From an uncultured Kordiimonas sp. (lineage in GTDB: Bacteria > Pseudomonadota > Alphaproteobacteria > Sphingomonadales > Kordiimonadaceae): DNA of 64,000 nucleotides. Both the position numbers and the translations under genes were made by a program. How positions within the stretch are numbered: the first letter of the stretch is position 1; each line of letters opens with the position of its first letter. The stretch is taken from NCBI GenBank assembly GCA_947492375.1, contig CANLMI010000004.1, forward strand, positions 248,001-312,000, read 5' to 3'. The notes under the pieces are model-generated. The model was given only the letters and a program-made list of their open reading frames with translations, made no database searches and was not told where the DNA came from. Below are positions 1-1,654 of the stretch, piece by piece.

Positions 1-657
1 TTTCGAGAACTCAATAGGCGTTTTTAAAATATACCAGTTAACCCCTTCTGTGCAGGGCGGGTATGTAAGGGAACCATTGTATCGATAATAGGATTTATTA
101 TGGGGTACCAGATCGCGTGCATTGATAAAGGTTGTTGTTAATGTACTGGTTTGGCCAGGTTCTAGGGGAAGATTAGTAATGAGTTCTTTTAACGCCTTAT
201 TTTCTGGCCCTTCTGACCCTAAAACACTCAGAATTGCTTTTGTGCCATCCACTCCGGTATGCTCGAATTGGATTTCTAATGGGTATGATTTTTCGGCGAT
301 TGTATGCTCAGCGGGGGTCCGAAATGTAAAGTTTCTCAATTCAAAGCGTTTGTCACCCACATGAAGAAAACTACCAGTTTTGTAATTTTGGATGATTTGT
401 TTGCCTGTATGACGCAGGTCAACTTCGTTAACATTATAATGTAATTGAAGAGCATGAAGTATTGCCGGGTCTGTTCCTTCGATGTTAATCGGTGATTGAT
501 AGTTTCCCGTATTACATGTTGCAAACTCGTTGGATAGTGACCCCCATTTTTCTGGTCCATTCGCTGGGTCATAAGACCATAAATCTTGGGCCTTAGTTTG
601 AGCCGAGAATAAAATGCCCGATAGAATGGCGATTATACTGAAAGAAAACCTAGTCAT
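1..657 (-). CDS. Alpha-carbonic-anhydrase-like periplasmic protein lacking the zinc histidines (3' end beyond window)
   Basis: An ATG at 657 on the minus strand opens 219 codons with no stop before base 1, so the gene runs off the window. Residues 1-24 look like a signal peptide, implying a periplasmic protein. Alpha-CA hallmarks are clear: WSYD and GPEKWGSL at 27-41, NYQSPINI at 52-59, TPAEHT at 114-119 and NGSLTYPPCTEGVNW at 194-208. The three zinc ligands are gone: the usual FHFH is FTFR (T111, R113) and the third His, in E-x-H, is Q130. The spacing of these positions matches bacterial alpha-CAs, so this is substitution and not misalignment. The segment before, normally carrying NNGHT, is also shortened. 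Family membership is secure; hydratase activity is unlikely, and a binding or structural role is inference. Confidence 0.85.
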   Translation of the reverse strand, partial: MTRFSFSIIAILSGILFSAQTKAQDLWSYDPANGPEKWGSLSNEFATCNTGNYQSPINIEGTDPAILHALQLHYNVNEVDLRHTGKQIIQNYKTGSFLHVGDKRFELRNFTFRTPAEHTIAEKSYPLEIQFEHTGVDGTKAILSVLGSEGPENKALKELITNLPLEPGQTSTLTTTFINARDLVPHNKSYYRYNGSLTYPPCTEGVNWYILKTPIEFSK

Positions 658-808: not shown

Positions 809-1117
809 ATGCTTCAGCTTCGGTCCAGTTGTGAGAATTGTAATAAAGATCTAGCGTATGATAGTTGTGACGCTATGATTTGCTCATATGAATGCACTTT
901 CTGTGTTTCATGCGTTGATGAGGTCCTTGAGAATGTTTGCCCGAACTGCGGTGGAGGTTTTGTTATGCGCCCTATTCGCCCTAAAAGAGAATGGAGGCCG
1001 GGAGTGTCGGTAGAACATCAACCCCCGGTATTCAATAGGGTACACAAACCTGTTGATGTAGTAGAGCACAAGCTTTATGCAAAACGGATTAAAGATATTA
1101 GCCCTAATGAACGTTAG
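809..1117 (+). CDS. DUF1272 zinc-binding protein
   Basis: The 102-residue product carries nine cysteines in its first 47 residues (C8, C11, C20, C25, C29, C32, C35, C44, C47), a RING- or zinc-ribbon-like set. The ECTFCVSCV and VCPNCGG stretches are typical of the DUF1272 family. After the FVMRPIRP segment, which ends the known domain, there is a charged tail of about 40 residues with no recognisable domain. A GGGGTGAG-type ribosome site lies just before the ATG. It stands alone, convergent with the DnaJ-like gene 21 bases downstream. The family has no established function; protein or nucleic-acid binding through zinc is only a guess. Confidence 0.85.
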   Translation: MLQLRSSCENCNKDLAYDSCDAMICSYECTFCVSCVDEVLENVCPNCGGGFVMRPIRPKREWRPGVSVEHQPPVFNRVHKPVDVVEHKLYAKRIKDISPNER

Positions 1118-1138: not shown

Positions 1139-1654
1139 CTAAAAAACAGGCCGTTCTTTTAATAAGTCATAAGCAGCTTGAATCTGTTGGAAACGTTCGG
1201 CTGCGGCCGGGTCACCCGGATTAGCATCAGGGTGGTATATTTTAGCGAGTTTACGGAACTGCCGTTTAATTTCTTCTTGTGTTGCTGTGTTGTCTAATTC
1301 GAGTGTATCAAAAGCGCTATTTTCGGTTGAAGAGAAGCCATCTTCGTCCAAACCGCCGCCCCATTCATATGTTTTTGCTTGGGAAAATGCATCTGATGAT
1401 TCACTGGTATCGTTCATGTGGCGCATTGCTTCTTCGTCGCTCATGCCCTGAAAAAAGTCCCAGTTTCTATTGTATTCAGCAGCGTGGGGCTTGCAAAAAT
1501 ACCAGCGTTCATTCGAGCCCGGTGACTTGGGTGCTGGATGTGCCCCTTTTTCATTGCAGCCACTATAATCACACATCCGTACTACTTCAGCTTCGCGTTC
1601 GCGGCCGTATTCGCCCCACCTGGGAAAACCGAAATTTTTTATATCACTTGGCAT
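1139..1654 (-). CDS. Small J-domain (DnaJ-like) cochaperone
   Basis: The 171-residue protein ends in a J domain (about residues 113-170) with the HPD motif at H141-P142-D143, the element that stimulates DnaK ATPase. The N-terminal half has a C..C...G.HPAP pattern followed by a Cys-x-x-His (WYFCKPHAAEYN) and an NWDFFQGMS stretch, the usual layout of a short alphaproteobacterial DnaJ-like family in which this part may bind zinc. There is no glycine-rich linker, central zinc domain or C-terminal client domain, so it is not the full-length DnaJ. It is divergent from the glycosylase gene, with about 100 bases between them. Partner choice is not visible from sequence. Confidence 0.88.
   Translation of the reverse strand: MPSDIKNFGFPRWGEYGREREAEVVRMCDYSGCNEKGAHPAPKSPGSNERWYFCKPHAAEYNRNWDFFQGMSDEEAMRHMNDTSESSDAFSQAKTYEWGGGLDEDGFSSTENSAFDTLELDNTATQEEIKRQFRKLAKIYHPDANPGDPAAAERFQQIQAAYDLLKERPVF

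Follow-up and report, generated by a model that had tools for sequence, protein, structure and literature searches.

The alpha-carbonic anhydrase (alpha-CA) encoded at the start of the window, by which we mean the whole stretch of 64,000 nucleotides of Kordiimonas DNA that was analysed, carries Thr, Arg and Gln at the three positions of the zinc-binding histidines. Judged from the sequences compared, the best explanation is that the zinc site was lost step by step among the Kordiimonadaceae, and that this copy stands at one end of the series. The T/R/Q set is beyond chance, since at least one ligand His is missing in 22 of the 28 alpha-CAs of the family and the ligand sets follow the tree. On balance, we judge it probable that this acatalytic protein with a CA fold has been kept for a non-enzymatic role in the cell envelope, together with a SPOR-like lipoprotein as its partner.

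The gene and its zinc site

The ORF listing of the window gives a minus-strand reading frame that starts with an ATG at positions 655-657 and is still open at window base 1. The full gene was obtained from the window's own genome, where it runs past the window edge and encodes 249 amino acids (L001:2241..1492, minus strand). The protein matches PF00194 across the domain (positions 1-242 of the 254-position profile; E 1.4e-31; score 110.5 bits, cut-off 27), and a fold was predicted for the T/R/Q relative L035 (pLDDT 89.2), for which the 50 structural matches shown are alpha-CAs, a dioscorin and the CA-like domain of PTPRZ. An NCBIfam search gave no match for the CA-like protein or for the partner protein. 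The profile match and the fold predicted for this close relative thus identify the window protein as an alpha-CA, in line with the fold named in the initial annotation of the DNA. The signal peptide proposed there also agrees with the appearance of the N-terminus, as judged by eye, and the protein would accordingly be a candidate for export to the periplasm.

Thr111, Arg113 and Gln130 occupy columns which we take to be those of His94, His96 and His119 in human CA II numbering; ligand sets are given below in this order. The columns were set by alignments with relatives that have three His (HHH) and by a match, at the level of the family profile, to the solved bacterial CA 6im0. The initial annotation had claimed the loss of all three zinc histidines, and this is borne out by both codons and alignments; its ligand spacing of 2 and 17 is correct, and the alignment with bacterial alpha-CAs places no alternative three-His set. 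The NGHT segment, on the other hand, had been described as shortened, and proved to be replaced by HTGKQ with no gap in the 27-row family alignment. His118 and His133 of the ORF were considered as a new zinc set and rejected, since both positions are invariant in the 27-row alignment and the His133 position is His in 80 of 80 rows of the wider alignment, HHH relatives included. A column screen for a new metal site made of conserved Cys or His showed no new conserved His or Cys.

The three His zinc ligands of an alpha-CA enzyme are therefore replaced in the window protein, which also lacks the equivalents of Gln92, of the proton shuttle and of Val121. Lys is found at the shuttle position of His64, which is not universally His among HHH alpha-CAs (69 of 77 distinct proteins outside the clade of paired proteins). 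The His-His-Gln site of the eta-CAs is likewise absent (Thr-Arg-Gln); L015 and L020 are HHQ. The gate residues are kept, with Glu117 corresponding to Glu106 and Thr198 to Thr199, as are two invariant Cys. The T/R/Q protein would be unable to hold zinc or to hydrate CO2 at a useful rate. Fold, gate Glu/Thr and the two Cys are common to the window protein and the bacterial alpha-CAs of PF00194 (Thermovibrio 4coq/4c3t, Persephonella 6im0, Neisseria 1kop), and the predicted model of L035 superimposes on Thermovibrio 4coq_B with Z 33.6 and 1.3 A over 224 residues at 34% identity. Unlike these enzymes, the window protein has neither the zinc ligands nor the proton-shuttle His, and its second shell is eroded.

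Table 1. Location of the CA-like gene, its codons of interest and nearby genes (window coordinates)
Feature	Position	Strand	Basis or remark
alpha-CA-like gene, 5' part (219 of 249 codons)	1..657	-	remainder beyond window edge; whole gene L001:1492-2241, minus
Probable signal peptide, residues 1-23	589..657	-	judged by eye from translation
Lys86 codon, proton-shuttle (His64) position	400..402	-	column comparison with HHH alpha-CAs
Thr111 codon, His94 ligand position	325..327	-	ACA on minus strand; alignments
Arg113 codon, His96 ligand position	319..321	-	CGG on minus strand; alignments
Gln130 codon, His119 ligand position	268..270	-	CAA on minus strand; alignments
DUF1272 protein gene	809-1117	+	E 4.3e-28; near CA-like gene
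DnaJ-domain protein gene	1139-1654	-	E 5.4e-19; near CA-like gene

Ligand replacement in Kordiimonadaceae and beyond

A profile search gave exactly one PF00194 match in 28 of 29 genomes of the family, whose named members are Kordiimonas marina, K. sediminis, K. gwangyangensis, Pseudokordiimonas caeni and Eilatimonas milleporae; G006 is the genome with no alpha-CA. L005 belongs to another family and was left out of the ligand count. The 28 proteins have the sets HHH (6), HHQ (2), NHH (1), NHE (2), DHQ (2), KHQ (2), THQ (1), SHQ (1), VHQ (1), TRQ (3), TKQ (1), ERQ (1) and VRQ (5), which can be arranged as a series HHH, HHQ, xHQ, xRQ, and the family thus provides close homologues with T/R/Q or similar sets. 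A pseudogene or a sequencing error was rejected as the cause, since similar sets are common to related genomes and dN/dS is low.

By our own sorting of the sets, 15 of the 28 members are left without a plausible set of three ligands (position 94 is Lys, Thr, Ser or Val, or position 96 is Arg or Lys), and 7 are altered yet might still hold a metal. The latter bear on an explanation in which the protein is a metalloprotein with altered coordination, either eta-CA-like His-His-Gln or with Asp, Glu or Asn as ligands, that works as a slow CA. HHQ, DHQ, NHE and NHH members do occur in the family, and in PMC5437132 the P. falciparum eta-CA with Gln at the third position is described as active, and human CA II His94Asn as keeping a markedly reduced activity. 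Thr/Arg/Gln in the window protein, however, leaves no three-ligand site and no new conserved His or Cys has taken its place, and with 15 of 28 members in the class without three ligands such coordination may hold for the 7 intermediate members only. We regard this explanation as very unlikely for the window protein.

One family protein, L003 of genome G008, is an HHH alpha-CA that groups with sphingomonad proteins in the tree and has no partner gene; by its sequence it is apparently a replacement or a separate acquisition. A beta-CA gene was found in 26 of the 29 family genomes, that of the window included, and could cover CO2 hydration there. The beta-CA match is absent from G007, G015 and G020, of which G015 has a VRQ protein, and no pattern was seen between ligand loss and beta-CA absence among the family genomes.

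The tree comprises 97 proteins, was built without the ligand columns and was rooted on L113/L115; it leaves out the duplicates L030-L043 and L077, the loci L138-L143, and further HHH loci including the 889-aa L086. The 27 paired family CAs and L044/L045 form one clade (support 98/95). On the best tree the triad was broken 7 times within this clade, or at least 3 times when only starred branches are counted, and 18 times in the whole tree, with at least 10 losses on starred branches; these counts are loss-only, and assume that a lost His never returns.

Selection was estimated for 13 chosen pairs by a simple counting method with the first 25 residues omitted, 3 pairs being saturated for the CA gene. 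The dN/dS values were 0.04-0.15 for non-HHH pairs (8 pairs with a value, dS below 1 in 4), 0.04-0.12 in the four pairs that have lost all three His on both sides, and 0.23-0.25 in the 2 HHH pairs. The 27-row family CA alignment has 40 invariant columns, and none of the 28 family matches contains a stop. As far as these substitution ratios tell, the gene is kept under purifying selection. The repeated erosion of ligands and second shell, and the truncation of one partner gene, could also be seen as signs of a decaying carbonic anhydrase relic heading for pseudogenisation, but the low dN/dS of the non-HHH pairs, the invariant columns, the lack of stops and the retention of a single copy in 28 of 29 genomes all speak against decay. 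The relic reading is already disfavoured, and we hold it to be most improbable.

The erosion of the second shell is seen when the 22 non-HHH paired proteins are compared with the other HHH CAs, a set of 77 distinct proteins (79 rows minus two duplicates). The Gln92 equivalent is found in 77/77 of the latter versus 0/22 of the former, the His64 equivalent in 69/77 versus 3/22, and the Val121 equivalent in 75/77 versus 2/22. At least one of the three is already changed in 4 of the 5 HHH family members of the pair clade, only L006 being canonical at all three; the HHH protein of Kordiimonas marina (L030), for one, carries Ser in place of Gln92. V76, E158, R181, Y209 and R239, by comparison, show no variation among the paired proteins, whether non-HHH (22 of 22) or HHH (7 of 7), and occur in 2, 8, 8, 7 and 2 of the 77 other HHH CAs, respectively. 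Clade residues that are kept together with a second shell that is eroded would be the pattern expected if a non-catalytic role, older than the loss of the zinc site, is under selection.

In the 22 non-HHH paired proteins Glu106 is always kept, and position 199 is Thr in 19 and Ser in 3, so that the pocket may still bind something. This touches on the main rival explanation, CO2/bicarbonate sensing, in which an acatalytic sensor would bind CO2, bicarbonate or another small anion in its pocket and signal to the SPOR-like lipoprotein or to a sodium symporter. Besides the two gate residues, Arg or Lys at position 96 could hold an anion, and the ligand-deficient CA-like domains of RPTPgamma/zeta offer a precedent, as they are suggested, in PMC11215419, to still bind CO2 or HCO3-. 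The wall of the CO2 pocket has nevertheless largely gone, as the counts for the Val121 and Gln92 equivalents indicate, and position 94 tolerates a wide range of residues, which would be unusual in a site specific for a small ligand. Nor has a signalling output been linked to the genes, and overall we find a sensor unlikely.

Outside the family, an alpha-CA was found in 1 of 30 sampled genomes of the same order, and a class-wide sample had PF00194 in 32 of 385 genomes. Apart from the window's genome this sample gave 36 matches; the triad could be read in 35 of them, and in 9 at least one ligand is substituted: DHH, THQ, QRQ, EHQ, DRQ, DRQ, HHQ, HRQ and EHH. The nine proteins are spread over 8 genomes, and not every one is an independent case, the DRQ pair being close relatives. 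Catalytically dead alpha-CAs had been called uncommon in bacteria in the initial annotation, a view not supported by these 9 of 35; judged by sequence, ligand loss in alpha-CAs of the class is not rare. The same sample warns against calling a bacterial PF00194 gene a carbonic anhydrase before its ligands have been checked.

A genome-wide scan for the loci nearest to the family, of which the best 80 were taken and which is hence biased to similarity, gave VRQ in a Thiomicrospira MAG, RRQ in a Rhodocyclaceae MAG and SRQ in a Rubrivivax MAG. These, and proteins from three genomes of the class, are x-R-Q proteins outside the family in which all three His are replaced (L055, L076, L085, L129, L136 and L137), and no match to the partner profile was present in the available flanks of these six loci. 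A phage origin of the gene was also considered, and was rejected as an IMG/VR scan gave 40 pattern matches, none of them a relative.

In total, 126 distinct readable alpha-CA proteins were compared, 87 of them HHH and 39 non-HHH. L138 is the same gene as L048 and was counted once; L030-L043 (14 loci) and L077 as duplicate genes, L084 as identical to L082, and L144 as a fragment with no triad were removed before the count. Across this set a lost His119 is replaced by Gln (32) or Glu (2), the sole replacements observed, and a lost His96 by Arg (16) or Lys (1), all 17 of these proteins being also devoid of His119, while position 94 takes many residues. Only two of the eight non-synonymous single-base changes of a His codon lead to Gln. 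Since His119 was lost independently at least 11 times (starred branches, one tree), an outcome restricted to Gln and Glu is not what would be expected from drift alone; the argument is post hoc and not a preplanned test.

The SPOR-like lipoprotein gene

The partner is a protein of 256-299 aa with a lipobox, a predicted TPR-like region, a low-confidence linker and a C-terminal beta-alpha-beta-beta-alpha-beta domain; from its sequence and model it is probably a lipoprotein that combines a TPR-like region with a SPOR-like (peptidoglycan-binding) domain. The lipobox Cys, Cys19 in the window's partner, is present in 27 of 29 rows of the partner alignment. It is missing in the partners of the NHE lineage (L008:2160-2972 and L010:2160-2975, the latter from Pseudokordiimonas caeni), which would then be free periplasmic proteins. 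In one further partner gene, at L027 (about 2164-2931), a single TAA inside the match removes the end of the SPOR-like domain.

Pfam SPOR matches to the partners are weak, with 21 of 29 at E<=0.1, a best value of 6e-5, and E 0.0087, below the cut-off, for the window's partner. When the predicted model of the L035 partner was used in Foldseek, SPOR domains of RlpA, DedD and DamX were found at ranks 1, 3, 5 and 8, the top row being the RlpA SPOR domain 6i05 (probability 1.00, E 0.019), with DedD at rank 5 and DamX at rank 8; no row reached E<=0.001. The TPR-like region dominates the structural list (best Z 9.8), which may reflect only a common helical arrangement. The glycan-binding Ser and Arg of the FtsN SPOR domain presumably have their counterparts in the invariant Ser218 and Arg257 of the partner. 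The predicted C-terminal fold may thus be like that of RlpA, DedD and DamX, from which the partner differs in its weak sequence match, its N-terminal TPR-like region and, within the family, its strict link to a CA-like gene.

At 27 of the 28 family loci the next gene directly downstream of the CA is that of the partner, with a stop-to-start gap of -17 to +15 nt for partner start codons chosen by us; the exception is L003 (G008). Of the 29 family genomes, the 27 that have a paired CA, and no others, encode a full-length partner, and G006 (no alpha-CA) and G008 (unpaired CA) have only short SPOR-region matches and no full-length partner. With at most 6 candidates scored per genome, a close partner at E<=1e-15 was found in 1 of 385 genomes of the class, the window's own, and in 27 of 396 genomes of the order, all of them in the family.

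This strict co-occurrence and the near-overlap of the two genes argue against a storage or structural envelope protein that has no specific partner, as the plant dioscorins would exemplify, and the clade-specific invariant residues also point to a specific role. Dioscorin 5 (4twl) is nonetheless found among both the structural (Z 29.3) and the sequence matches, and we consider a protein of this kind quite unlikely.

The same partner, in the same place, follows the HHH CAs of two Rhodospirillales MAGs (L044, L045). Another family of the class has four genomes in which an HHH alpha-CA (L130, L132, L133, L141) is followed 11-14 nt past its stop by a lipoprotein-like ORF, with the ATG starts chosen by us; these ORFs differ from the partner at the N-terminus, and their C-terminal region is recognised by the SPOR-like portion of its profile at E 1e-12 to 2e-5. 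Pfam found no SPOR domain in these four neighbours, and a lipoprotein attachment site, below cut-off, in 2 of the 4. Some 2.5 kb from the HHH CA at L047, the opposite strand encodes a TPR-SPOR lipoprotein, which matches the partner profile over its C-terminal part only (E 3e-26) and Pfam SPOR at 0.0015, below cut-off. A Sel1-SPOR gene (Pfam SPOR E 1.4e-6) was noticed near L115, also on the other strand.

The location of an alpha-CA gene beside that of a SPOR-like lipoprotein is thus not confined to proteins that have lost their zinc ligands. Because HHH relatives (L044, L045 and the four outside loci) are also paired, the pairing probably predates the loss of the ligands, as far as can be read from these genes. 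The outside pairs support the link to the partner and not the loss of activity. The possibility that the partner is a general companion of acatalytic CAs was rejected, since the partner profile gave no match at L048, L055, L059, L061, L076, L083, L085, L089 and L109 (flanks of at most 5 kb) or at L121, L128, L129, L134, L136, L137, L138, L142 and L143 (flanks of at most 1-1.5 kb).

Beyond the partner, 24 of 27 family loci have a sodium symporter gene downstream on the same strand (two of the other three end earlier), and 21 of 27 have a MocR-type regulator gene upstream, also on this strand; the MocR-type identity (GntR plus aminotransferase-like) is our assumption from the type of sequence. 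In the window's genus and at L022 a DnaJ-domain gene takes the place of the regulator gene, and the same search found neither symporter nor regulator at L044/L045. Since the pair travels with the symporter and often with the regulator, the functional link could also lie elsewhere. Gene pairing and co-occurrence are no proof of a physical interaction, and the link to the partner does not by itself need an inactive CA, as HHH CAs are also paired.

Proposed role and relation to known proteins

A binding or structural role in the periplasm, as suggested in the initial annotation, stays the best reading of the sequences, and the non-enzymatic envelope role with the SPOR-like lipoprotein that we favour is a more specific form of it. 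The evidence that speaks most strongly for it, the paired SPOR-like gene beyond the window edge and the graded losses among relatives, was out of reach of the initial annotation. The CA fold would serve in the periplasm as a module that binds, or acts as an adaptor for, the protein encoded by the next gene, with which it may interact physically, and the pair would have its role in the envelope. Probably the joint role of CA and SPOR-like lipoprotein came first and enzyme activity became dispensable afterwards, given that the pairing seems to predate the ligand loss. Replacement of His119 by Gln could plausibly have been a permissive first step, and HHQ intermediates may still be enzymes, since the Plasmodium eta-CA with Gln at the third position is active according to PMC5437132. 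A likely reason why only Gln or Glu is seen at 119, and only Arg or Lys at 96, would be that Gln119 could still hold a metal at first, and that Arg96 would later supply the positive charge that the pocket formerly had from zinc.

A bolder version of the proposal would be a bacterial family of CA-related proteins, in which a zinc-free receptor or adaptor with a CA fold has arisen several times in one bacterial family and steers a peptidoglycan-binding lipoprotein, possibly in response to CO2, bicarbonate or some other anion that Arg96 would hold where zinc used to be. Behind it would stand an association between alpha-CAs and SPOR-like lipoproteins that is of greater age in the alphaproteobacteria. 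This version is speculative, and we think it unlikely.

As far as its sequence tells, the window protein would work like the animal CA-related proteins (CARPs) and the CA-like domains of receptor phosphatases. It has the features by which the CARPs are recognised, namely a CA fold, lost ligand His and a conserved sequence. In CARPs VIII, X and XI the fold is kept and at least one ligand His is lost, according to PMC2873310; in PMC9032886 the three CARPs are said to lack one, two and three His, respectively, the last of them being printed there as 'CARP IX'. These proteins differ from ours in their animal setting, whereas here a bacterial gene pair with intermediate states is found; the origin is probably separate. 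The CA-like domains of RPTPgamma and PTPRZ have lost two ligand His, have Gln175 (mouse RPTPgamma) at a ligand position and bind contactins, as stated in PMC11215419. The PTPRZ-type structure 3jxf_B is matched by the L035 model with Z 28.7 and 1.7 A over 225 residues, but these domains belong to a receptor phosphatase and the window protein would be free-standing and exported.

Toxoplasma TgCA_RP and the Plasmodium eta-CA resemble the window protein in having Gln at the third position. In TgCA_RP the first His is also replaced and Lys stands at the proton-shuttle position (PMC5437132), both as in the window protein. TgCA_RP, however, is a GPI-anchored protist protein with two of three His substituted, whereas all three are substituted in the window protein with Arg in the middle, and the settings are unrelated. 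Among the matches listed from the open-licence PMC literature (titles and starts of abstracts), none was concerned with acatalytic bacterial alpha-CAs or with the pairing of a CA gene and a SPOR gene.

Bacterial PF00194 genes of this family offer a view of pseudoenzyme formation that is seldom available, as one single-copy gene shows the start (HHH), intermediates (HHQ, xHQ, NHE) and endpoints (xRQ), with repeats. To our knowledge, the change from enzyme to pseudoenzyme is usually visible only as its two endpoints. Some of the states of the series are found in named strains (Kordiimonas, Eilatimonas, Pseudokordiimonas). The presence of the same partner in 27 of 28 genomes suggests what selection has kept, and the order of events, that is, whether a binding role preceded the loss of catalysis, becomes testable. 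Bacterial HHQ alpha-CAs were found at L015, L020, L048 (= L138) and L089; they have the same set as the Plasmodium eta-CA, and are natural test cases for the activity of that site.
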